This document shows positions 3,001 through 22,219 of a stretch of DNA of 29,096 nucleotides, piece after piece (positions within the stretch are counted from its first letter, which is position 1; each line of letters opens with the position of its first letter). The position numbers and the translations under genes were made by a program. The stretch comes from a virus: positions 1 to 29,096 of IMG/VR virus record IMGVR_UViG_3300027712_000107; one strand, written 5' to 3'. The notes beneath the pieces are model-generated. The model had not been told where the DNA came from. It made no database searches and saw nothing but the letters and a program-made list of their open reading frames with translations.

Positions 3001-4196
3001 GCAAAAATATCTAAAGCATTGGCAAGAGTTCCAGAGATAGGAGCAACGCCGTAAACTGTAGAAGTCAATGGACCTTCTTCATTGCCTAACTTACTTTCGG
3101 CAAGGGCGATCCCTTGTTCCTGTAATCCACGCCCTAATACTGTAAGCCCTAATTGATTCGCTGCTCGAACTGCTGGCAAACGAAGGCGCTGGGCTAATGT
3201 GTCTCTGATGGCAATCTGAGCGGGTGCTGTTTTAGCGATAATTGGAACTATTGATTTATCAATGCCCCAATAAATTTGCTTGAGAACTGGCTTATTAAGC
3301 AAAGCCTTAGCGGATACATTAGCAATGCTGGTAACTCCAGCAGTGTTAGCAGCAACAATCGAATTAAGCAATGTGTATTTAGGAGCAACTTCTGCTGCTG
3401 ACAAAACTGCACCAGTTTTTGCTGTAGTTGCTGCTACTTTTGCTCCTGTTACTACGCGAGCCAAAGGTATAAATGTAAGAAGGGTCATTGCATCGTTAAA
3501 TACTTGACCAAAAGTGAGTGCGCGTTCGTTGTATTCCTTGGCGCTAATTCTATTTTCTGGCTTTGCGCCTACCTGACCTACGGCAGATGCCACACTTGCT
3601 GGCACTGCACCTACCAATGAGTCACCAATAAGTTGCATTACAGATCGTGGAGTTGATTTAGCAACTTCGAGGATGACATTGAGGTTGCGTGAAAGGCTGA
3701 GTGCGCCTAAAACGTGTTGGACTGTGGACTTAGCAGGTGCGTTGCCCGCTCCTGGCTTTGTCAGTTGGCTATATGCAGCATCGTTTGCCGCTGCCGTCCA
3801 TTCTGGAGTCCAAATACCAGTGACCTTTGCTCCCTTTGGAGCTAGTCCCGCTTTAATCATGTCTTGCTGAATTGTTGAAACATGATCTTCTGCTAAAAGT
3901 GTATTACCAAAGTGACCCTTGATTGCTGTTGTTGCCTTTTGTACCATTGATGGCATACGCGCTTGCTGTGCATCTGCATAGAAATGATCCAGACTCGCTG
4001 CATTGTTTGCAGTAGCTTGTTTAATTTGGTCAGCAATAGCAAACTGAACTGTTGATGGGTTGCCACTAGAAGCAATTGCAACCTGTGTAGGAATATCTAG
4101 TGAGCCATATCCATTTGCATGAAGCGCATCAATGTTATCTGCTAGTTCTTGCGCTGGTGTTTTTTCTGGAGTAGGTAGGGGATTCACCATACTCAT
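1..4196 (-). CDS. Very large virion protein, partial (C-terminus beyond left edge)
   Basis: One frame stays open on the minus strand from the ATG at 4196 to the left edge, giving about 1,398 codons in the window with no stop. The ATG overlaps the TGA of the upstream gene (ATGA), which fixes the start. The protein is Ala-rich and mostly helical in character. It has a hydrophobic Ala/Val-rich stretch at about residues 230-310, a Lys/Glu-rich region at about 600-720 and an aromatic FFPFSFNKT motif near residue 1193. Its place two genes after the portal, and its size, suggest a structural protein, perhaps an internal or ejected virion protein. I do not recognise a named family. A tape measure is less likely because the tail genes lie elsewhere. 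Frame and start are sure; function is inference. Confidence 0.85.
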   Translation of the reverse strand, partial: MSMVNPLPTPEKTPAQELADNIDALHANGYGSLDIPTQVAIASSGNPSTVQFAIADQIKQATANNAASLDHFYADAQQARMPSMVQKATTAIKGHFGNTLLAEDHVSTIQQDMIKAGLAPKGAKVTGIWTPEWTAAANDAAYSQLTKPGAGNAPAKSTVQHVLGALSLSRNLNVILEVAKSTPRSVMQLIGDSLVGAVPASVASAVGQVGAKPENRISAKEYNERALTFGQVFNDAMTLLTFIPLARVVTGAKVAATTAKTGAVLSAAEVAPKYTLLNSIVAANTAGVTSIANVSAKALLNKPVLKQIYWGIDKSIVPIIAKTAPAQIAIRDTLAQRLRLPAVRAANQLGLTVLGRGLQEQGIALAESKLGNEEGPLTSTVYGVAPISGTLANALDIFAIQMNPGTAAFRAATAKQIVGDTAKAGAVFRNALDDMGALVAWQKANPDLDYTEILAAHKAAGGTELDVLKTIGQQVNQIAAQQAMMELRNPLIQDGTYAAMNAAQKEEWALSAQRQIWDDAANPNGLLAQARQTLVADQNALETGFRQIGANAAGDVRKITQKGKGTSRFNQQIEANSIMDRVLNSDMSQNFITPQLLEKLTTGQIPKAEEVLAARKAEPIITGSPEEISSAQKVLNDATKAEELAKASAKKAGLEVEGVYKVYTQADIKKKIITEAQMKAYQEWNAASRAVREARSALNKVNPKAPSEFVAPTVEMAKQAEVKPNAGAIGIARLETLTKAGANKIYNNLAEELRLAKTPEAKAKVRTEIANTLLEEFGYDVYKLGGYDTPQMLNLLGDKANGLAADLYVVRDAPKEFTDMIARLKELGYKPVIGTDIGHVYNPAVQFTDLGTAEIKTASKIASKFGLSPRLSDSEAVSARARVETNRTIQDAIDSGKIKVFPSFNADRLLTYIRSAAEKEVKLTWGQEQVLLSSRKAGLYDIPIKRIMEAEGYTETEAWNAILEAKRTELGLREIPYADLMRILTKPLDKDVADMMGLPNGTKFMDEKSAQNTIKAIWKARTNVPTEMIGGLAKVEDWLYGGLGIGDKFSGNNGIKLASVPSRLFNLRSRVRYQLSPLFAYRRMFKTAVKGITENIPPTMYPESKMEEMGIYAQAKKIHERIFPEDATKNAFLDEAERVIRETDFYNLYNTRAAEQWASYWLAKQGFNDAEIAQKIENVMGYGERTGAERTVNAIFFPFSFNKTVMRQFGAYLLTHPGQVMLTHAILDLYDKHGGTKMNKWLDENMPIIKEIHKLNPLEHGVGLGGLGGINAPYIQALFDLLAPKMIDYGTTSHNNSVMSTLNKYIPAVKEFSDLFMTREGKVGEGEVWASIKSLANIGEEVKSKLEGGETLIAPRQHKNMPTQAQQTAAWEYRNTLIAQLQPYLDYNYKNPNNRIVW

Positions 4197-6607: not shown

Positions 6608-6906
6608 TATTTACCCTTGTTTCTCTTTGAGATTGCTGCTGTTTTTTTCTTAGCATCTGCCTTGCTAGAGGCTCCCCATGCTTGAAGTGATAACAACAAG
6701 CGAGTCGGATCTCCATTTGGCTTATGCTCTGGCCCAGGTGCGTTACCCATACGAGCAAGGAAACTTGCTCTGCGTGGATTATCCCCAGACTTTACTGGTG
6801 GCTTTAGGTTGTGACCTTCTGCCTTAGCACTGGCACGACCTTTTGCATTAAGACCACCCTTGGGGTTCTGTCCTTCTTTGCGTTGCCATGCTGGAGTCTT
6901 AGCCAT
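6607..6906 (-). CDS. Small basic protein, DUF6321-like (99 aa)
   Basis: A 99-residue basic protein with the start TPAWQRKEGQNPKGGLN and a second conserved block SFLARMGNAPGP, then PTRLLLSLQAWGASSKADA. The same order of motifs is seen in small proteins of aquatic phages, including cyanophages, for which I recall the name DUF6321. No enzymatic motif is visible. It starts on an ATG that shares its A with the stop of the gene before it (TAATG) and ends in the same way against the next. The alternative frame over this span (6444-6758) is a shadow. Confidence 0.78.
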   Translation of the reverse strand: MAKTPAWQRKEGQNPKGGLNAKGRASAKAEGHNLKPPVKSGDNPRRASFLARMGNAPGPEHKPNGDPTRLLLSLQAWGASSKADAKKKTAAISKRNKGK

Positions 6907-7061
6907 TACTTTTTCTTTCTTGATGCCGCTGCATTATCAACTAGATTTGGATAAGGCCGCCCTGCTGCTTTTGCACTAGCTTTCGCTTTTGCCTTCTGCG
7001 TAGGAGTCAATTTTGTAGAAGTCTTTTTAGGATTCTTTTTATCCCAAAATTCTTTTGGCAT
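6906..7061 (-). CDS. Small basic hypothetical protein (51 aa)
   Basis: A 51-residue protein starting at 7061 with MPKEFWDKKNPKK, followed by Lys/Ala-rich repeats (KAKAKASAKAAGRP) and ending in KKK. About a third of the residues are Lys or Arg. It is the third in a chain of five small basic proteins joined by TAATG overlaps. No family is recognised. Lys/Ala-rich sequence of this sort is typical of DNA-condensing tails, but I have no direct evidence of that here. Confidence 0.65.
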   Translation of the reverse strand: MPKEFWDKKNPKKTSTKLTPTQKAKAKASAKAAGRPYPNLVDNAAASRKKK

Positions 7062-7473: not shown

Positions 7474-9369
7474 TTAGCCTCGCCAGCGAGATCCAGACAT
7501 CCATGAAGGTCGAGCAAATGTTGGTGGTGTATCCATGTGGGCATGGAAAAGATTTGGCGCGTTCCAAATTAAAAACCAGTGAGCCATCACAGTATCGTCA
7601 GTTGAACCCTCTGGCCAGTGAATCAATTCTTTCACCATCGGGCGCATTGTTACTTTAGATCCCATGAAATCGCCAGCAGGGAATCGCACTCGACCAGCTT
7701 TGTAGTGAGGTGCGAGAGTCTGCACTCCGTATTCCTCATCTGACTTATTGCGGTTAGTCTGATGGGGAATGATGATGACGTTGCGAATAGCAGTCCATCG
7801 CTTGAAGTGGTCGTATTGCAACATGAAGCGCTGGGCAGCATTAGCTTCCACAATGAGGTGGGTGAACGGATGCCCTTGATCGTTGGAGCGTTGCCACCAT
7901 TCCTCAAGGAGTCCTGTGAACTTGCGGCTATCTTGGTTGTAATCTAGGAAATCTGGCGCATCCATAGGCGAACGAACCAAGTCCACTAGATGTTGCATCT
8001 GAGTCTCGGCATCATAAGCCCACCATTGAACTGCCCAGTATTTTGTCGGAGATGGGTCAGCGGTAACTACAGAATATGCGTGGATGTTCTCTGGCCACTT
8101 ACCAATGTTTCGGTTCTCATCCCAGCACCCTTGATAAGAAGCGCCAGTGGAATCCATTCCCCCGTCAATCCATGCTGGTTGAATAAGGCTTGAGGCTTGG
8201 TCAACATCTTCCTGCTGATACAAAATGCGGTAACGATCCAGACGGTTCTTTTGAACACGGGCAAGTTCGCGCCATGGCAAACGAATTTCATCAAGCAAAC
8301 ACCCATCTGGGTAATTGCCCTTATGCCCACCATTGGTTTTATCGGCGGTACACAACTCATCGTAGTGAGCCTTGTAAATAATGTGGTGATATTTCTTTGA
8401 AGCCTTTTCTGGCTGATCTTCAAATTCCTCAGACCAGTCAACAAGGTTTAGGGCGTAGCGGTACAAATCGTCAGAAGCCATTCTTTGTCCATTGAGGATC
8501 AAAAGCCCACCAGGATCGAGACGAGTTTCAGCTTCGGTTTCCCACCAGTTGATGAGGTTCTCTTTTGATTCGGCTGTGCGGATGTTTGTCTTGTCCACAA
8601 GGTCATCCCAGATAACTGTGTCATAACGACCACCGAGAAAACCTGAGTCCATACCAAAAGCTGCAAAGTTTGCTTCCTTGTCATCGACGGCAACTCCGCC
8701 ATCCTGAGCCAAGATAAATTCTTCTAAGCGCCACAAGTCTGAGTTGGCTGGCTTGAATCGTCCGAAGTCTGTGATAAGCGTGGAGACTGCATCAACGGCT
8801 AAACCCTTTTCTAGCAACACTGGGTCAGCCTTCATCGGGGTCATGCGTTCAAAGGTTCTACGAATACGACCTGTGTATTTGATTGCTTGATTAGCAGTAC
8901 GGGAACCAATCATGGTTCGTCTGGATCTATCGCGCACTGCAAGCCATACTGGAAAGTCGTGAGTCCATAGCGTTGACTTACCAACACCAGGAGGCTGGTT
9001 AACTACAACATATTCCTTATGAGGGCTGGCTGCCAACTCCATCATTTTGTAAACGGCTTCTTCTGCCCATGGCGAAGTAGATCGCGCAAAGTATCTGGAT
9101 CGGAAATAACCAAAGTCCTCTAGCGCTCTAGCCGAGTCGCCTTTGACTTTATCAATGCCAAAGACTCCAGCCTTCTCATGTCCGAACTCACCAAGGATTC
9201 TGTTAAGGCGTGAAGTGGGTACGCGCATTTGACGCATGACAGATGAGTAGCTGATGCCAGCCATCTGAGCCGAAGTTCTCTGAGAGTGTCCTTCGTTGAT
9301 GAGACGTGCGTACTTACGCCAGCGCCCATCATCAATGCGTTTGTTAGTGCCGCCACCTAATGCAGTCAA
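7474..9369 (-). CDS. terL: Terminase large subunit
   Basis: This is the DNA-packaging motor, a 631-residue protein with an N-terminal ATPase and a C-terminal nuclease. The Walker A-like motif is PPGVGKST near residue 130, and the Walker B is TVIWDDLVD near residue 255. The nuclease half starts at a first acidic strand, VVTADPSPTKYWAVQ, near residue 443, with further acidic positions downstream (LIVEANAA; STDDTVMAHW). The first 60 residues contain a helix-turn-helix-like segment (HSQRTSAQMAGISYSSVMRQM) that could bind DNA and replace a separate small subunit. The start is a TTG at 9369, four bases after the upstream gene. The next in-frame ATG would remove that helix-turn-helix, so TTG is preferred. 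Confidence 0.93.
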   Translation of the reverse strand: MTALGGGTNKRIDDGRWRKYARLINEGHSQRTSAQMAGISYSSVMRQMRVPTSRLNRILGEFGHEKAGVFGIDKVKGDSARALEDFGYFRSRYFARSTSPWAEEAVYKMMELAASPHKEYVVVNQPPGVGKSTLWTHDFPVWLAVRDRSRRTMIGSRTANQAIKYTGRIRRTFERMTPMKADPVLLEKGLAVDAVSTLITDFGRFKPANSDLWRLEEFILAQDGGVAVDDKEANFAAFGMDSGFLGGRYDTVIWDDLVDKTNIRTAESKENLINWWETEAETRLDPGGLLILNGQRMASDDLYRYALNLVDWSEEFEDQPEKASKKYHHIIYKAHYDELCTADKTNGGHKGNYPDGCLLDEIRLPWRELARVQKNRLDRYRILYQQEDVDQASSLIQPAWIDGGMDSTGASYQGCWDENRNIGKWPENIHAYSVVTADPSPTKYWAVQWWAYDAETQMQHLVDLVRSPMDAPDFLDYNQDSRKFTGLLEEWWQRSNDQGHPFTHLIVEANAAQRFMLQYDHFKRWTAIRNVIIIPHQTNRNKSDEEYGVQTLAPHYKAGRVRFPAGDFMGSKVTMRPMVKELIHWPEGSTDDTVMAHWFLIWNAPNLFHAHMDTPPTFARPSWMSGSRWRG

Positions 9370-11064: not shown

Positions 11065-11544
11065 ATGACCGAAGAAGTCACACAAGAAACAAAACCAACC
11101 TTCGCGGAAATAATCGCGGAACTAACAAAGCGACAAGAGCAAGCCGAGAAAGATTGGCGCGACGCTCTCGCAAAGTATGACGACCCAACCTATGACGAAG
11201 AGTTCGAGGACACCCTCCAAAGGAAAATAGATGAGGGCGCGTCGGATGCACTGAAAAACGCTCTTGAACTTCTGAAGTCTTTCGACCTTGAAGCGGTAAT
11301 CGCTGAGGCAAAACAAGAAACAGGCGAGAGCGTTCTCAGTTATCTGAAAGACATTTACGAAGGAATCGACGAAACAGACATTTGGGGAGATTACTTCGAG
11401 CAGGTTTCCTGTGGTGCTTGTGGTGAGTTCTACACCGAAGGCGAAGAAGAAGCGCATTTTGAGAACTGCGACGAAAACCCCGCCAATATGGACGACAGCG
11501 CACGACCTGAGAACCATTTCCACAACCCAAAGGCGGTGAACTAA
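11065..11544 (+). CDS. Acidic hypothetical protein with CxxC...HxxxC motif (159 aa)
   Basis: First gene of the plus-strand island. The ATG at 11065 follows AAAAGGTGAACCAA, the same kind of ribosome site used by later genes of the operon. The longer frame from 10888 has no such site and reads unlikely sequence, so it is not used. The 159-residue protein is strongly acidic and helical in its first 110 residues (for example FAEIIAELTKRQEQAEKDW), with coiled-coil character. Near the C-terminus CGACGEFYTEGEEEAHFENC can form a C2HC zinc finger. The stop overlaps the next start by one base (TAATG). No family is recognised; a small phage regulator or host-interaction protein is a guess. Confidence 0.75.
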   Translation: MTEEVTQETKPTFAEIIAELTKRQEQAEKDWRDALAKYDDPTYDEEFEDTLQRKIDEGASDALKNALELLKSFDLEAVIAEAKQETGESVLSYLKDIYEGIDETDIWGDYFEQVSCGACGEFYTEGEEEAHFENCDENPANMDDSARPENHFHNPKAVN

Positions 11545-11963
11545 TGAGCGAGACAACTTGGGCGAATCTTCCTAAAACCTGCCCCGAATTCGTAGAACAC
11601 CCCCACATTGTCGAGAACAAAATTTACGACATGAACGGCAACTACAAAGAGACAAGGCGCGGGGGTTGTTACACCTGCCAAGTTGCTTTGGCTTCAGAAG
11701 AACAAGGAACCACCGAAATTGCTTCCGCCCTTATGGATGCAGGGATTCACAATGTAGAAGTGGAGCAAACGGGCGGTTTCTGCATGGCTGTTTATGTGTA
11801 CGGAGAAACTCAAACCGTGAACATTTGCGCCAACAAAGAAGGCGCTTGGATTGAATTCAACGAAAACGGCGAATTTAAGGAGTGCGAATTATTCACAGGT
11901 GAAGGAGCAACAACGGCGGAAATTGTCGAAGCAATTAAGAAGAACATCCATCTAATCAAATAA
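11544..11963 (+). CDS. Hypothetical protein (139 aa) ending in a hammerhead ribozyme
   Basis: A 139-residue protein translationally coupled to the previous gene (TAATG). The N-terminal part holds scattered cysteines and histidines (TCPEFVEHPH, then GGCYTCQ). The centre is alpha/beta in pattern (EIASALMDAGIHNVEVEQTG, CMAVYVYGETQTVNICA), and the C-terminal TTAEIVEAIKKNIHLIK is helical. No family is recognised. The last base of its TAA stop is also the first base of the hammerhead ribozyme, so translation of this gene ends on top of the ribozyme. Confidence 0.75.
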   Translation: MSETTWANLPKTCPEFVEHPHIVENKIYDMNGNYKETRRGGCYTCQVALASEEQGTTEIASALMDAGIHNVEVEQTGGFCMAVYVYGETQTVNICANKEGAWIEFNENGEFKECELFTGEGATTAEIVEAIKKNIHLIK

Positions 11964-12012
11964 GGCGAAACCCCTTCGGGGGTCTTGGCGTAATGCGCCA
12001 ACTGATGAGCCT
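11963..12012 (+). ncRNA. Type II hammerhead self-cleaving ribozyme, copy 1
   Basis: All parts of a hammerhead are present in circularly permuted order with helix II open. Helix II: AGGC (11963-11966) with GCCT (12009-12012). GAAA core: 11967-11970. Helix III: CCCC-TTCG-GGGG (11971-11982), closed by the A11970-U11983 pair. Cleavage-site nucleotide: C11984, with cutting expected between 11984 and 11985. Helix I: TTGGCG (11985-11990) with CGCCAA (11996-12001). CUGAUGA core: 12002-12008. Every invariant core base of the family is present. It lies between two genes of the plus operon and starts on the last base of the stop codon, 40 bases before the next start. Confidence 0.9.
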
Positions 12013-12051
12013 AAAAAGGTGAATTCGATCAAAATGGAAAAGGTGAAACAA

Positions 12052-12462
12052 ATGCAAACAACAGAACAAAAGACAGAAATTCCGACCTTCCTCTGTACCT
12101 GCAATGGATGCAGACAAGTCCCAAAGCGCTTTGATTCTTCTTATGTAGAAGTAATCGCACAGGAAACAGAAGGTTTCTATTTCTCCCCAAACACTCGCAA
12201 ATTCTTCGGTGTTCGTTTGACGGGTTTCTACACTCTCTCAAGCGGTGGAGTGCTTATTACAGCAACACAAAAAGCGGGCTTCTCTGATTCAGAGGGGCGC
12301 GAAATAAATCATGCGTATTTCTGCAAGTTTGGAAATCTTGTGAAGGATTTCCACTACCGCACAAAGCTCCAAGCACGAAAGAATCTTTTTGAAGGTGCAA
12401 ACGATGTCGATTCTTGCTCTTGCCATGGTTGCCAAATTGAACGCGCACGGATCCAGAAATGA
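12052..12462 (+). CDS. Hypothetical protein with paired Cys motifs (136 aa)
   Basis: The ATG at 12052 follows GAAAAGGTGAAACAA. An in-frame ATG at 12034 also has an upstream AAAAAGGTG but at 12-13 bases, so 12052 is preferred. The 136-residue protein carries CTCNGC near the N-terminus (residues about 15-20) and the similar CSCHGC near the C-terminus (about 123-128), which could join in one zinc site. Between them lies a beta-rich centre (FFGVRLTGFYTLSSGGVLITATQ). No family is recognised. It is the first gene after ribozyme 1, so its mRNA would begin with the 3' cleavage product (5'-hydroxyl end). It overlaps the next gene by ATGA and contains one GGATCCAGA repeat at its end. Confidence 0.75.
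   Translation: MQTTEQKTEIPTFLCTCNGCRQVPKRFDSSYVEVIAQETEGFYFSPNTRKFFGVRLTGFYTLSSGGVLITATQKAGFSDSEGREINHAYFCKFGNLVKDFHYRTKLQARKNLFEGANDVDSCSCHGCQIERARIQK
12446..12458 (+). repeat. GGATCCAGA island repeat, copy 3 (inside a gene end)
   Basis: CACGGATCCAGAA, identical over 13 bases to copies 1 and 2, overlaps the last codons of the gene at 12052-12462 and ends just before the ATG at 12459. Being kept inside coding sequence argues for a function at DNA or RNA level, or for recent spread. Confidence 0.6.
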
Positions 12463-12626
12463 AAATTTCGTGCGAATTCAAAACAAATAGAGGGATGACC
12501 CCACTCGAAATTTCAAACCTTCTTTCTTCCTTGTATTTACAAATTCAAGAACCTTGTGACTTAAACGGAGACGATGAAAGTTTCATTTGTCACGACATAA
12601 TTGTGAAATTGGAGTCCATGAAATGA
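12459..12626 (+). CDS. Small hypothetical protein (55 aa)
   Basis: Read from the ATG at 12459, which overlaps the preceding TGA (ATGA). An internal in-frame ATG at 12495 behind AGAGGG is a second possible start that would give 43 residues. The product is a small acidic helical protein (TPLEISNLLSSLYLQIQEP, DDESFICHDIIVKLES). Its stop again overlaps the next start by ATGA. Double coupling supports a real gene; the function is unknown. Confidence 0.6.
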   Translation: MKISCEFKTNRGMTPLEISNLLSSLYLQIQEPCDLNGDDESFICHDIIVKLESMK

Positions 12627-12766
12627 TTCAAACATCAAGCGCCCTTCTCTATTTCGGGTCATTGGCTGTTGGCTTGGGAATCCTCGCCGTGTCTGCCGTC
12701 GCTTTGGTTCTCATAATTGAGGGGGGATGGTGGCTAATCGCGAAGGCAACAGGGCGCGAATACTAA
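12623..12766 (+). CDS. Small single-span membrane protein (47 aa)
   Basis: A 47-residue protein with one long hydrophobic segment, about residues 8-32 (LLYFGSLAVGLGILAVSAV, then ALVLII), followed by GGWWLIAKATGREY. The N-terminus is short and polar and the C-terminus basic. It is coupled to the upstream gene by ATGA, and its stop codon provides the first base of ribozyme 2. Possible roles include a small lysis, superinfection or membrane-signalling peptide; none can be chosen from sequence. Confidence 0.65.
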   Translation: MIQTSSALLYFGSLAVGLGILAVSAVALVLIIEGGWWLIAKATGREY

Positions 12767-12815
12767 GGCGAAACCCCTTCGGGGGTCGTGGGATTTCGTC
12801 CCACCTGATGAGCCT
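12766..12815 (+). ncRNA. Type II hammerhead self-cleaving ribozyme, copy 2
   Basis: Same architecture as copy 1. Helix II: AGGC (12766-12769) with GCCT (12812-12815). GAAA core: 12770-12773. Helix III: CCCC-TTCG-GGGG (12774-12785), with U12786. Cleavage nucleotide: C12787. Helix I: GTGGGA (12788-12793) with TCCCAC (12799-12804). CUGAUGA core: 12805-12811. The segment from stop codon to cleavage site is identical to copy 1, but helix I has a different sequence on both sides and still pairs over all six positions. That covariation supports selection for the fold. The next gene starts 41 bases downstream. Confidence 0.9.
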
Positions 12816-12855
12816 CGGCACATTTGAAATTTGATCGATTGGAAAAGGTGGAAAA

Positions 12856-13209
12856 ATGACAAAAGACAGAAGCCAAGACTCGATTTCTTGGGGTGAATTG
12901 GCAGAACTTACCCACGCAACACAGGTAGAAAGGTTCGGGTTTTGCGGTTGTGAGGATAACGAAGGCAACGAAAACCCCTTCAGCGATTGCCCAAAGAAAG
13001 CGACCTACCACGGAATAACTCAAGCGACCTGCCTAAATTGCGGGCTCGTCACTCTTGAAATCCCCGCCCTTGAAATAATGAACGACCTCGGGGCGGATTG
13101 CGTCGGGTGCGGAATTCATCTCGTCGCGTGGTTCTCAAACGGGGATTTAATCATCACGGGGGACACCCCAAACGGAGACGGGTTTCGTCACGAGGTAAAG
13201 AAAGGTTAA
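12856..13209 (+). CDS. Cys-rich hypothetical protein (117 aa), last gene of the island
   Basis: The ATG at 12856 follows GGAAAAGGTGGAAAA. The 117-residue protein has CGCED (about residue 30), a Cys at about 44, CLNCG (about 58) and CVGCGIH (about 82), spaced like two zinc knuckles. The second half is beta-rich (HLVAWFSNGDLIITGD). No family is recognised. It follows ribozyme 2, so it would be released as its own mRNA after cleavage. The gene ends 211 bases before the convergent minus-strand genes. Confidence 0.72.
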   Translation: MTKDRSQDSISWGELAELTHATQVERFGFCGCEDNEGNENPFSDCPKKATYHGITQATCLNCGLVTLEIPALEIMNDLGADCVGCGIHLVAWFSNGDLIITGDTPNGDGFRHEVKKG

Positions 13210-16896: not shown

Positions 16897-17306
16897 TTAG
16901 GGTACGCTGATTGCGCCCACTTAGCAAGCAATTCAGCCTTCAATTCTGGCGGCAATGGCACTGCATTTTGACGGGCGATTTCAGCCTCCTGTGCCAGTTG
17001 TAGCGACCTTTTGCGCTCTTCTTCATCCCTTTCCCTAGCCAATGCCTTCTCCTTCTCCTGAGCCTCCTGGGGGCTTAATCGGCGGGGTGGCAATTGCCCA
17101 TCGTGCCAGCGCTCTTGTTCAAGCCAACGAGCTGGTGCGGGCGTGAAGGTTAGATCCAGATTGGGGTCGGCGGCTAGGCGTTGAGCAGCTTGAACTATCT
17201 TCTCTGCGGGGTGCTTAGTTATGGCTATTGCCCACGCCTCGCGAGCGCTTCTAACGCTGGCTTTGCGAGGGTAGGCGTTCCAGAACTGACCAAACAAATC
17301 AATCAT
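16890..17306 (-). CDS. Replication/helicase-loader-like protein (138 aa)
   Basis: Starts behind GGAGTAACC. The N-terminal 75 residues follow a pattern found at the end of phage replication initiators: LFGQFWNAYPRKASVRSAREAW, AEKIVQAAQRLAADP, then TPAPARWLEQERWHDG. In larger proteins this domain is linked to helicase loading. The second half is a charged coiled coil (EAQEKEKALARERDEEERK). At 138 residues it lacks the N-terminal DNA-binding domain of full-length initiators. Placement next to WhiB, RecT and nucleases supports a replication role. Confidence 0.7.
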   Translation of the reverse strand: MIDLFGQFWNAYPRKASVRSAREAWAIAITKHPAEKIVQAAQRLAADPNLDLTFTPAPARWLEQERWHDGQLPPRRLSPQEAQEKEKALARERDEEERKRSLQLAQEAEIARQNAVPLPPELKAELLAKWAQSAYPKP

Positions 17307-17676
17307 GGTTACTCCATCTGTTATACGGCGAGACTGACTTAGGGCGAATGTGTCGCTTTATCTCAGCTTCACTCACGCCAAATTGTCCCATCTCGTCTAA
17401 TGTCTTACTGCGCCATTCCATCTTAGCAACGCCAGCGACAGCATCTCTTTCGGCGCTTGTCATTCCACCCCAAACTCCGTAACTCTCATTCTCAAAGCCC
17501 CACTGTAGGCACTTCTCAAATATCGGACATGAGGTACACAACTGGCGAATACGATCCATCTTCAACTTGCGTTCGGGTGAGGCTTGGCGAATTTCTTCTA
17601 CATCATAAAAGATATTCGTATCTAACCCTTGGCAACTGCCTTTAGACCAATCTACGAACGACGCATAGACGCGCAT
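17299..17676 (-). CDS. WhiB-family Fe-S transcriptional regulator
   Basis: The start at 17676 is preferred because AGGTTGG lies before it; the longer frame from 17721 adds 15 residues over the upstream gene. The 125-residue product has the four cluster cysteines at 15, 47, 50 and 56 (GSCQG; CTSCPIFEKC), then the GVWGGMT turn at about 67-73 and a basic C-terminus. WhiB-like proteins hold a 4Fe-4S cluster and bind the primary sigma factor. They occur only in actinobacteria and their phages, so this gene is the best host marker in the window. It is likely to redirect host or phage transcription. Confidence 0.92.
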   Translation of the reverse strand: MRVYASFVDWSKGSCQGLDTNIFYDVEEIRQASPERKLKMDRIRQLCTSCPIFEKCLQWGFENESYGVWGGMTSAERDAVAGVAKMEWRSKTLDEMGQFGVSEAEIKRHIRPKSVSPYNRWSNHD

Positions 17677-18335
17677 CCAACCTCCCCAGTTGCGTCGTAC
17701 CACTGGCATGAAGCAAAACAAAAATGCTTAGGTTTCTCTGGTTCTGGAATCTCTCGCTTCTCGGCGCTCTCTTTAACTTCTTCAAGCCATTTCAACCCAG
17801 ACTCAGCAAGTTCTCGGTTATATGGTTCAGAGTGAGTCTTAATATGTTCCATCTTTCCATCGCGAGCGATAGATACTAATGAGACTTCTTTCGGTGTCTC
17901 GCCATTCTTCTCCAAGATATAGGCATACAGATTTACCTGCATGATCTGTTGCTCGGATGGGAAGTAACGCTGACCAGCTTTGGTAGTGGTTTTCCAGTCA
18001 ACGACTAGACCTTTATTGCGGATGTATAAGTCCGTATGCGCTGGCAATCCATCATCATCTAGTTCTTGTTCGATGAGGAAGTTATCGCCAAATGGATCTT
18101 CTGACTTAATAGCCTGAGCAATCATTTCGTGAATTGCCGTACCCATAATCGAAGCCAACTTGTCTGGCGTATGAAGTTTGGGTGCGTCAATCAGTTGATA
18201 GTAAACCTGCCGTCTGCATCCACCAATTTGCGATGGGCCAATCTCGACTTGCTTTGAACGCGCTCTCCTGGAATCCCAGTTGTTCAATGCGCGAACAAGC
18301 ATGGTTCCTAGATAGGCGTTTGTCTCTTCGCTCAT
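17652..18335 (-). CDS. Cas4/RecB-like PD-(D/E)XK exonuclease
   Basis: A 227-residue nuclease with the motifs of the RecB/Cas4 group: GGCRRQVYY (Cys40), GTAIHE (His69), TDLYI (Asp102), VVDWKTT (Asp113/Lys115) and QVNLYAY (the QxxxY helix). Three C-terminal cysteines (206, 210, 221; CFASCQWYDATGEVGC) with Cys40 complete a 4Fe-4S site. Such phage exonucleases resect DNA ends for a RecT annealase, which lies four genes upstream in the same operon. No cas1 or repeat array is present, so a role in recombination is favoured over CRISPR adaptation. Confidence 0.88.
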   Translation of the reverse strand: MSEETNAYLGTMLVRALNNWDSRRARSKQVEIGPSQIGGCRRQVYYQLIDAPKLHTPDKLASIMGTAIHEMIAQAIKSEDPFGDNFLIEQELDDDGLPAHTDLYIRNKGLVVDWKTTTKAGQRYFPSEQQIMQVNLYAYILEKNGETPKEVSLVSIARDGKMEHIKTHSEPYNRELAESGLKWLEEVKESAEKREIPEPEKPKHFCFASCQWYDATGEVGCASMRRS

Positions 18336-20236: not shown

Positions 20237-20770
20237 ATGACCACAATCATTGGAGTTGAGTACGAGGATCACTGCACCCTCATGGCGGATAGCCGTACTA
20301 CCGATTCTGAGGGTCGAATCTATAGCCACCCAACTATTACAAAGCTGAATAAGCGTGGCGATTTTATTATTGGAGGTTCTGGTGAAGCATCACCCTGCGA
20401 CATCGCCCAGCATCTTTGGATCCCACCTAAGTTGACGGCAAGAGATAAGAAAGACTTGGTTCATTTTATGATTACCAAGGCGATGCCGTCTCTTCGCAAA
20501 TGCCTAATCCGACATGGCTATAACTTTAACGAACCATCATCTGAGATGCGCTTTCAGTTTCTTATCGCCGTGGGTGGATATATCTTTGATGTCGATCAAG
20601 AACTGGTTGCGTCGAGAAACGATCCTGGAATCTACGCCGTCGGTTCTGGATCTTCCTACGCCCTCGGCGCTCTCCATGCTGGGGCTGACATCCTAGAAGC
20701 AATGAACATAGCGGCTAGACTAACTGCTTTCACAGCTCCACCTTATATTCAAATCAGTCAACCGCGCTAA
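20237..20770 (+). CDS. Proteasome/HslV-like Ntn hydrolase
   Basis: A 177-residue protein that matches the proteasome-beta/HslV fold along its length. After removal of Met1 the new N-terminus is Thr (TTIIGVEYEDH). Asp sits at position 17 counted from that Thr (MADSR), a Lys at 35 (TITKLNK) takes the place of Lys33, and YAVGSGSSYALGAL corresponds to the GSG loop of HslV. The final helix is ILEAMNIAARL. No ATPase partner such as HslU lies nearby. It is alone on this strand, divergent from recT, and its end overlaps the methyltransferase gene tail-to-tail by 17 bases. The ribosome site is GAGAGGATTCTCCCC. Possible roles are a protease or another Ntn amidase. Confidence 0.8.
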   Translation: MTTIIGVEYEDHCTLMADSRTTDSEGRIYSHPTITKLNKRGDFIIGGSGEASPCDIAQHLWIPPKLTARDKKDLVHFMITKAMPSLRKCLIRHGYNFNEPSSEMRFQFLIAVGGYIFDVDQELVASRNDPGIYAVGSGSSYALGALHAGADILEAMNIAARLTAFTAPPYIQISQPR

Positions 20771-21386
20771 CTAAGCGGTTAATAATCCATTCGACTACTG
20801 GTACTGCAACAGCGTTACCCATTTGCTTATAGCGATGTGAGTCTGCTTGTCCATCAGTCCAACCATCTGGGAATCCTTGAAGGCGCTCGCACTCTGTTGG
20901 TGTTAGTCGGCGGACAACTGGTGGTTGATCGATAAACAACTGGGCATGATGAGATTGCACAGATGGTTGATGGGCTTGCAGCGCAAGAGATACTTCTGTT
21001 TCAGTCGCGCTAAAGTTATTAGCTTTTGCATCTTCGCGGATTGAATAAGCAACTGCTTGTCCGCCTGTGCGATCTAAAGTATAGGAAGGAGCATCTTCTG
21101 CTCCGACTCCCAATCCATTCTGATTCTTTTCCATGTCTCTTCCATCCTGAATTGGAAATACCATTGGCACGTTTCCTCCACCAGTTCCATATCGTGAAAT
21201 AACTGTCGGTGCTATCTGATCTTCGTAAACTCTTACATCGCCAACGCGAGTCCCATCGATGATGAGAACGGTTGCGTATGACTCTCCATTGTTATCCATG
21301 CGGTTCAATGTAGGAACTACCCCCCCCTGAATCCAAGTTTCGTAATCGTCGTAAGAAGAGGCGCGTTTGCCTTTACTGAACCACAT
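20754..21386 (-). CDS. C5-cytosine DNA methyltransferase, C-terminal part (target recognition, motifs IX-X)
   Basis: A 210-residue protein from ATG 21386, overlapping the end of the catalytic part in another frame. It holds the target-recognition region (TWIQGGVVPTLNRMD, VISRYGTGGGNVPMVF). It then has motif IX, LTPTECERLQGFPDGW, and motif X, RYKQMGNAVAVPVVEWI. It cannot act alone because motifs I-VIII are in the other gene. Two-subunit C5 enzymes such as M.AquI have this division. A run of eight G on the coding strand (21320-21327) lies within codons for QGGV. A real frameshift between the two parts is the alternative. Confidence 0.85.
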   Translation of the reverse strand: MWFSKGKRASSYDDYETWIQGGVVPTLNRMDNNGESYATVLIIDGTRVGDVRVYEDQIAPTVISRYGTGGGNVPMVFPIQDGRDMEKNQNGLGVGAEDAPSYTLDRTGGQAVAYSIREDAKANNFSATETEVSLALQAHQPSVQSHHAQLFIDQPPVVRRLTPTECERLQGFPDGWTDGQADSHRYKQMGNAVAVPVVEWIINRLVSAVD

Positions 21387-22101
21387 CGACAACCTGCAAT
21401 AGATTGTTTTGAATTGCTTCGTTGCTCATTTGACCTTTGATTAAATCAGATACAGTTAAAGTTCCTACCGTATGCTTTCGAGCGCGTTCTGTAACTGCGT
21501 TGGAAGGGACTTGCCCCGATTGCTTGCTCGCCTCAAAATACCTGCTGCGGCTTTCGCGGAGATTGAGTATTTCTTGAGGTGATCGCCCGCTGTCTCCAAG
21601 ACTTCCGACAATAAAGACTCTTCTGCGCCGTTGGGGTACTCCAAAGTATTGAGCATCAAGCACCCGCCATCCCACGCGATACCCGCGCTGGACCAACGCT
21701 TCAATGACAACGACCATGTCTCTTCCGTTATTGCTGGAAAGTAAACCAGGGACATTTTCGAGGATAAAGTTTTGCGTTCTTGTTTCGTCAAGGAGTCGGC
21801 AGATTTCCCAGAAAAGTCCAGACCGTTTTCCCGCCAGTCCTGCTCGCTTACCAGCGACGGACAAATCTTGGCAGGGAAATCCTCCTGTAATGATTCCATC
21901 GACGGGATCGAATCCTGCTGAAATGAGTTGCTCACCTGTTACCTCCGTAACATCGCCAAAGATTGTTGAATTCGGGAAGCGTCGGCGTAGCACTTCCTGA
22001 GCCTTGTTATCAATCTCTACTGACGCTACAACTTCTACGCCACTTCGTTCTAGTGCGAGGTCAAATCCTCCTACACCAGCAAACAAACTAACTGCTTTCA
22101 T
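21373..22101 (-). CDS. C5-cytosine DNA methyltransferase, N-terminal catalytic part (motifs I-VIII)
   Basis: The ATG at 22101 follows GAAAAAGGTGAAA and is preferred over a TTG at 22131. The 242-residue product has motif I (SLFAGVGGFDLALE), the catalytic GFPCQDLS loop (motif IV), ILENVPG (motif VI) and PQRRRRVFIVG (motif VIII). It stops at TAA 21373 just where the target-recognition domain begins; that domain continues in the +1 frame. The enzyme transfers methyl from S-adenosylmethionine to cytosine and probably protects phage DNA from host restriction. No partner restriction enzyme is nearby. Confidence 0.9.
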   Translation of the reverse strand: MKAVSLFAGVGGFDLALERSGVEVVASVEIDNKAQEVLRRRFPNSTIFGDVTEVTGEQLISAGFDPVDGIITGGFPCQDLSVAGKRAGLAGKRSGLFWEICRLLDETRTQNFILENVPGLLSSNNGRDMVVVIEALVQRGYRVGWRVLDAQYFGVPQRRRRVFIVGSLGDSGRSPQEILNLRESRSRYFEASKQSGQVPSNAVTERARKHTVGTLTVSDLIKGQMSNEAIQNNLLQVVDVVQ

Positions 22102-22219
22102 TTTCACCTTTTTCTTTTCCTTTGAACTCAAGCATTGAGAAACAAATAGGACAATCTAAATCATCGTTAATCGAAGTGATGATTACATTTCCGCAACCAG
22201 GACACTCGAACCTAAACAT
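22088..22219 (-). CDS. Tiny zinc ribbon protein (43 aa)
   Basis: A 43-residue protein from ATG 22219 with CPGC (residues 6-9) and CPIC (23-26) and a charged tail. Its start overlaps the phosphoesterase stop (TGATG), and its end overlaps the methyltransferase start by 14 bases and contains that gene's ribosome site. Confidence 0.62.
   Translation of the reverse strand: MFRFECPGCGNVIITSINDDLDCPICFSMLEFKGKEKGENESS

Follow-up and report, generated by a model that had tools for sequence, protein, structure and literature searches.

Hammerheads flanking phage genes, together with the hypothesis that they process transcripts, have been known since 2011, when Perreault et al. (PMC3088659) described hammerheads flanking prophage genes, proposed the same processing role as is considered here, and reported that a triple cluster was cleaved in vitro and in E. 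coli. The type II hammerheads of Rfam family RF02276 share with the two elements described below the catalytic core, the open helix II, the circular permutation, and the occurrence in phages and prophages. Most members of that family carry a pseudoknot between loop I and the tail, which is absent from the two copies in our window (the whole 29,096-base virus record that was analysed), and their usual stem II has 3 bp with an AGCC-like tail, whereas the window copies have a stem I of 6 bp with a UNNNR loop and a stem II of 4 bp. The prophage clusters of Agrobacterium tumefaciens (the ardA triple), Azorhizobium caulinodans, and Clostridium scindens (PMC3088659, Figure 3) resemble the locus in having several ribozymes per phage operon and a proposed function in transcript processing. 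Cleavage was demonstrated for those clusters, whereas it is predicted from sequence in the window; on the other hand, placement here is pinned to the stop codon and the RBS, and Streptomyces phages reach 8-13 copies per genome with conserved syntenic positions.

The arrays of the Arquatrovirinae (R4, Daudau, Paedore, Hank144, Celia) are also of type II and lie beside the stops of small genes on one strand; unlike the window copies, they belong mostly to the pseudoknot variety and pass the Rfam cut-off. The HDV-like theta ribozymes of gut phages (Nat Commun 2024, PMC10879173) are likewise phage self-cleaving ribozymes acting on their own RNA, but they have a different fold and, going by the title of that report, are tied to tRNA-based recoding rather than to mRNA punctuation. 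Retrozymes and viroid-like repeats also contain two hammerheads in direct orientation, about 600-1000 nt apart (PMC7761336), but theirs are of type III or I and are linked to circular RNA and retrotransposition, and no such element is present in the window. What bacterial and phage hammerheads do is described as unsettled by reviewers of the field (PMC6155905), and our search of the open-access literature found no report of dense Streptomyces arrays, of a stop-ribozyme-RBS rule, or of a short-loop class.

Anatomy of the two ribozymes

Two type II hammerhead ribozymes of the short-loop variety were identified by motif and fold on the forward strand, at positions 11963-12012 and 12766-12815, with predicted cuts at 11984/11985 and 12787/12788, respectively. 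Both copies follow the architecture AGGC-GAA-[ACCCC-UUCG-GGGGU]-C^-[stem-loop I]-CUGAUGA-GCCU. In ribozyme 1, helix II is formed by AGGC (11963-11966) and GCCU (12009-12012), and the core is composed of GAA (11967-11969), C17 at 11984, and CUGAUGA (12002-12008). Its hairpin III (11970-11983; ACCCC-UUCG-GGGGU) folds alone at -8.6 kcal/mol, and its hairpin I (11985-12001; UUGGCG-UAAUG-CGCCAA) has 6 bp and the loop UAAUG. In ribozyme 2, helix II is formed by AGGC (12766-12769) and GCCU (12812-12815), and the core by GAA (12770-12772), C17 at 12787, and CUGAUGA (12805-12811); hairpin III (12773-12786), recognised by sequence and fold, is again ACCCC-UUCG-GGGGU, and hairpin I (12788-12804; GUGGGA-UUUCG-UCCCAC) has 6 bp and the loop UUUCG.

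The letters that define a hammerhead core (CUGANGA, GAA(A), and UH at the cut site) appear in both copies as CUGAUGA, GAAA, and UC. Loops close helices I and III while helix II is open, as in type II, and both copies have the three helices with covariation that are expected of hammerheads. When each copy is folded alone, the minimum-energy structure matches the three-way junction of a hammerhead exactly. Hairpin I of ribozyme 1 is predicted to be still folded in the cleaved product, and that of ribozyme 2 likewise; in the tail of ribozyme 1, an alternative hairpin is possible with the 3' strand of helix II. The sequence-only reading had placed two type II hammerheads at these positions, and every base is as it gave them, with fold, scan, and covariance model in agreement; its statement that the copies differ in helix I while retaining all six pairs also holds. 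The overlap with the stop codon and the short stem-loop I common to many phages are points that it did not contain.

The two copies share a stretch of 24 identical bases (TAAGGCGAAACCCCTTCGGGGGTC), at 11961-11984 and 12764-12787, and the first 22 nt of both ribozymes are the same. This identity, as opposed to the hairpins III that differ between the copies of the related contig L157, looks like the product of recent gene conversion or inter-copy recombination.

Independent tests of the identification

Scanning for the complete definition (the core together with its three helices) returned two matches in the window and none in 300 simulated windows, which were Markov sequences of the same length and dinucleotide make-up. 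Applied to 146 sequences (1.3 Mb), the same scan found 308 matches in the forward sequences versus 0 in their reversed, uncomplemented versions. A covariance model (R1) was trained on 14 hammerheads taken from other phages, with the window copies left out, and on the 29-kb window it matched only these two sites, scoring 50.1 bits (E 3.3e-12) for ribozyme 1 and 48.9 bits (E 7.5e-12) for ribozyme 2.

Covariation was assessed in an alignment of 32 members of the short-loop variety, in which all 480 pair cells (480/480) were standard and 13 of 15 pairs had changed on both sides. The covariation score was 0.81 compared with 0.18 after shuffling, and the pairing was destroyed when the partners were slid by one base. 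Since this alignment required pairing for selection, the fairer test comes from 191 distinct sequences that were chosen solely by their core letters (GGCGAAA, GTC, and CTGATGAGCC); helices I and III were both formed in 169 of these 191 matches, as against 42 of 9550 (0.4%) when the inner letters were shuffled.

Rfam scores and the two structural varieties

At curated thresholds, Rfam gave no match in the window. RF02276 (Hammerhead_II) was the best family at both sites, with 28.9 bits for ribozyme 1 and 22.5 bits for ribozyme 2, below its gathering score of 37 bits; the absence of a hit above threshold, which the sequence-only reading had named as the first half of its refutation, was thus literally observed. 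The window copies fall short of this cut-off because they represent the short-loop variety, without the pseudoknot tail, and not because their core is defective. None of 18 further short-loop contigs reaches the Rfam cut-off either, and since this variety scores below it, phage hammerheads are undercounted in surveys that rely on Rfam.

Stem-loop I lengths fall into discrete classes. The long class (stem-loop I of 21-23 nt) mostly has a helix II of 3 bp and AGCC-like tails. For loops of at least 5 nt, complementarity of at least 4 bp between loop I and the tail was found in 64% of cases versus 26% in shuffled ones. The short class, to which both window copies belong, has a stem-loop I of 17-18 nt and shows no pseudoknot enrichment, with complementarity of at least 4 bp in 12% versus 10% shuffled. 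Its geometry is strict: in 43 examples of 17 nt that were unselected for the loop, stem I had 6 bp in every case (43/43), the loop was UNNNG or UNNNA in 38, and helix II had 4 bp in 38. Such fixed stem lengths suggest that loop I may contact helix II in another way.

The loop I-tail pseudoknot, a consensus but not universal feature of RF02276, is unsupported in the window copies, where complementarity within the first 12 nt of the tail amounts to 2-3 nt; ribozyme 2 has a possible 5-bp match farther along the tail. According to Perreault et al. (PMC3088659), many hammerheads have no recognisable pseudoknot, and short-loop members may therefore already sit in their alignments. The same authors (PMC3088659) found that, in a pseudoknot-bearing type II ribozyme, the loop I-tail pseudoknot is needed for fast cleavage. 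At the Mg2+ levels of the cell, the window copies, which have no pseudoknot, may therefore cleave slowly, provided that their UNNNR loop establishes no other contact.

The forward operon and other features of the window

Both ribozymes lie in an operon on the forward strand (11065-13209) that forms an island between leftward genes. The first segment contains an ORF of 159 aa (11065-11544), with no family above the cut-off and a relative in L157 at 43% identity, and an ORF of 139 aa (11544-11963) whose start overlaps the previous stop, whose TAA (11961-11963) overlaps ribozyme 1, and which has relatives in four contigs (L150, L152, L157, and L162). The middle segment begins with an ORF of 136 aa (12052-12462; 142 aa if the start is at 12034), preceded by the SD GGAAAAGGTG at 12036-12045 and with weak relatives in L156 and L165. 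It is followed by an ORF of 55 aa (12459-12626) and an ORF of 47 aa (12623-12766), each joined to the previous gene by an ATGA overlap; the latter encodes a probable membrane peptide, and its TAA (12764-12766) overlaps ribozyme 2. The last segment consists of an ORF of 117 aa (12856-13209) with the SD GGAAAAGGTGG at 12841-12851 and relatives of its N-terminus in L147, L151, L159, and L161. For none of the six operon proteins did Pfam or PHROGs searches indicate a function, and no relatives of the middle gene were found in a search of viral contigs.

The first base of both ribozymes is also the final A of a TAA stop, and about 40 nt separate the ribozyme end from the next start (ATG at 12052 and 12856), each of which is preceded by an SD. 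The two gapped junctions both carry a ribozyme, as opposed to none of the three junctions with overlapping genes (11544, 12459, and 12623), and the arrangement is that of clustered phage hammerheads, namely two ribozymes of the same strand that border genes of a single operon. Judging from the overlaps and the direction of its genes, the operon may be cotranscribed through the ribozymes. Promoter and terminator scans gave results at chance level, and no promoter was evident; a terminator-like site on the reverse strand (11985-11968) was rejected, being merely hairpin III read backwards.

Elsewhere in the window, a WhiB-like transcription factor (PF02467) is encoded at 17299-17721 (-), which suggests a putative actinobacterial host. 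An ORF at 20237-20770 (+) gave a weak match to a proteasome subunit (Ntn hydrolase; E 2e-4), just under the Pfam cut-off. A C-5 cytosine DNA methylase at 20754-22131 (-) apparently comprises two adjacent ORFs (20754-21392 and 21373-22131), with the match obtained in a search of the second ORF, and is perhaps a split or frameshifted gene. No tRNA genes were found in the window.

Relatives and conservation of placement

Judged by its terminase, the phage has only distant cultured relatives (25-27% identity). Among 23 contigs with a related terminase, one (L157) has both ribozymes, and some of the others are too short to tell. In L157, whose terminase is 84% identical, the two junctions that carry ribozymes are those of the window, and each ribozyme again sits on a TAA stop. 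Homology to the window genes covers those ahead of ribozyme 1 but is not recognisable for those between and after the ribozymes. In L146, with a terminase 96% identical, the operon is absent and no hammerhead match was obtained. The absence of the operon from L146 and the exchanged genes of L157 indicate that the region is accessory and exchangeable, and, given so close a relative without it, the operon is dispensable.

The same motif was found in many more IMG/VR stretches, 33 in one search and at least 119 in another. For 67% of 227 hammerheads, an upstream stop (ORF of at least 40 aa) was located within 12 nt, compared with 8% at random, and the commonest placement was an overlap with the last base of the stop, as in the window. 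A start with an SD was present within 90 nt downstream in 79% of the same 227, compared with 31% at random, and nearly all of these starts lay at 15-35 nt. The distances peaked from overlap to 5 nt for the upstream stop and at 20-30 nt for the next start, and the stop-ribozyme-RBS layout recurs in hundreds of phage copies. An exact match to the 21-base 5' half with CTGATGAG after it was absent from GTDB genomes. The short-loop pattern was observed in four bacterial contigs, L220, L221, L222, and L223 (labelled Fretibacterium, Synergistaceae, Syntrophorhabdus, and Microvirga lupini), which are possibly prophages.

Arrays in cultured Streptomyces phages

Hammerheads were also found in cultured Arquatrovirinae phages of Streptomyces. 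According to the Rfam model (E <= 0.001, with nearly all matches above the cut-off), 8-12 hammerheads are present in each of nine distinct genomes of approximately 50 kb, including R4, Daudau, Paedore, Hank144, and Celia. In all nine, the hammerheads share one strand and are confined to about the last quarter of the genome. Spacing within arrays is irregular (61-4139 nt). By the Rfam model together with our own scan, Paedore (L008, NC_054671.1) has the largest array among those found, with 13 type II hammerheads packed into 9 kb (42021-50945) of a single strand.

In the array regions of Hank144, Paedore, and Daudau, a hammerhead is present in 24 of 27 intergenic gaps longer than 70 nt, but in 2 of the 27 junctions where genes overlap or lie at most 40 nt apart. 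When R4 and Paedore are compared, hammerheads are kept at corresponding junctions, and most genes unique to either phage are set off by an additional hammerhead. Three small genes annotated in R4 (L035), gp75.1, gp67.1, and gp60.1, occupy the positions of type II hammerheads at 3912-3976, 6864-6928, and 9232-9296, and are probably mis-annotated RNA elements.

Proposed function and alternative explanations

Hammerheads with this core cleave after H17 and leave a 2',3'-cyclic phosphate and a 5'-hydroxyl. The anatomy of the ribozymes, their covariation, their placement, and their conservation at the same junctions are read directly from the sequence, and what best explains them, in our judgement, is that two cis-acting type II hammerheads serve as cistron punctuation. 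We consider it probable that they divide the operon into three mRNAs, and that a hairpin on both new ends favours the type II permutation. The sequence-only reading had likewise proposed that two hammerheads within one phage operon split its mRNA into three pieces. There is strong support for the first part, a pair of type II hammerheads within a single forward operon, while the splitting is something we infer from the anatomy, which it fits very well: the ribozymes are on stop codons, upstream of an RBS, and in the same places in a relative. Points that count against this explanation are the missing pseudoknot, the alternative hairpin possible in the tail of ribozyme 1, the dispensability of the operon as seen in L146, and the lack of an evident promoter.

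According to this proposal, the operon would be transcribed as a single RNA, and each ribozyme would fold while emerging and cut after C11984 and C12787, respectively. The products would be an mRNA for the genes at 11065-11963, one for the three overlapping genes at 12052-12766, and one for the gene at 12856-13209. Each upstream mRNA would end just past the UAA with hairpin III and C17 bearing the 2',3'-cyclic phosphate, whereas each downstream mRNA would begin with a 5'-hydroxyl flush with hairpin I, about 67 nt ahead of a start codon with its RBS. Because helix II is the open one, hairpin III would stay upstream and hairpin I downstream, so that both new ends would be structured, and exonucleases and 5'-end-dependent RNases should therefore be slowed. 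The type II permutation would be favoured since it leaves a terminal hairpin on both ends. Were cotranscription, cleavage in the cell, and end stabilisation to take place as predicted, the benefit to the phage might be that each block of accessory genes decays and is translated as an independent unit, with no need for its own promoter or terminator.

A different outcome of the same cleavage, which we regard as unlikely, is that the selected effect is mainly the shut-down or limitation of expression through cut-dependent decay, and not the formation of stable separate mRNAs. Ends with a 5'-hydroxyl and a cyclic phosphate are unusual, host RNases could attack such fragments, and the occupation of almost all genuine gaps in the arrays by ribozymes would also suit this explanation. 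However, hairpins are predicted at both product ends, each ribozyme is followed by an SD and start within a narrow range of distances, and the extra genes of Paedore bring extra ribozymes, which fits expression better than silencing.

It is rather improbable that the window copies are degenerate hammerheads with the right outline, too slow in the cell and kept by recent descent. Scores under the Rfam cut-off and the lack of pseudoknot enrichment in the short-loop variety are what such elements could show, but decay would erode the strict geometry of the 43 loop-unselected examples as well as the core and the pairing, which are intact.

We give very little credence to the idea that the elements are mainly short repeated DNA for recombining cassettes of accessory genes, with self-cleavage incidental. 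The 24 bases shared by the two window copies and the different genes found between conserved ribozymes in the window and in L157 are in its favour; nevertheless, repeats serving recombination would have identical stems, whereas helices I and III vary freely with compensation around a fixed catalytic core, and these compensated changes therefore point to selection on RNA structure rather than on DNA identity. Release of the 803-nt middle segment by the paired hammerheads, with its ends rejoined into a circular or spliced RNA, is equally improbable: as the two copies share the same helix II and the same 5' half, a hybrid ribozyme (3' half of copy 1 with 5' half of copy 2) could form by base-pairing and ligate, but Perreault et al. 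sought such RNAs from similar clusters and detected none (PMC3088659), no RNA ligase was found among the window proteins checked in Pfam (part of the ORFs), and the irregular array spacing is unlike that of retrozymes.

Cistron punctuation by cis-acting hammerheads could also be placed in a broader scheme, which we put forward more tentatively, as slightly less likely than not. Accessory genes may behave as mobile ribozyme-RBS-gene modules, in which a new cistron would bring its own hammerhead, plug into an existing transcript, and be freed as a hairpin-capped mRNA without a promoter or terminator, with up to 13 such ribozymes per genome. In phages like that of the window, this may be accomplished by another type II architecture, one that has no pseudoknot (stem I of 6 bp, UNNNR loop, and stem II of 4 bp, often over the stop codon) and is missed at the Rfam cut-off. 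The strict stop-ribozyme-RBS layout and the availability of cultured phages with 8-13 copies make the question of what these hammerheads do experimentally easy.
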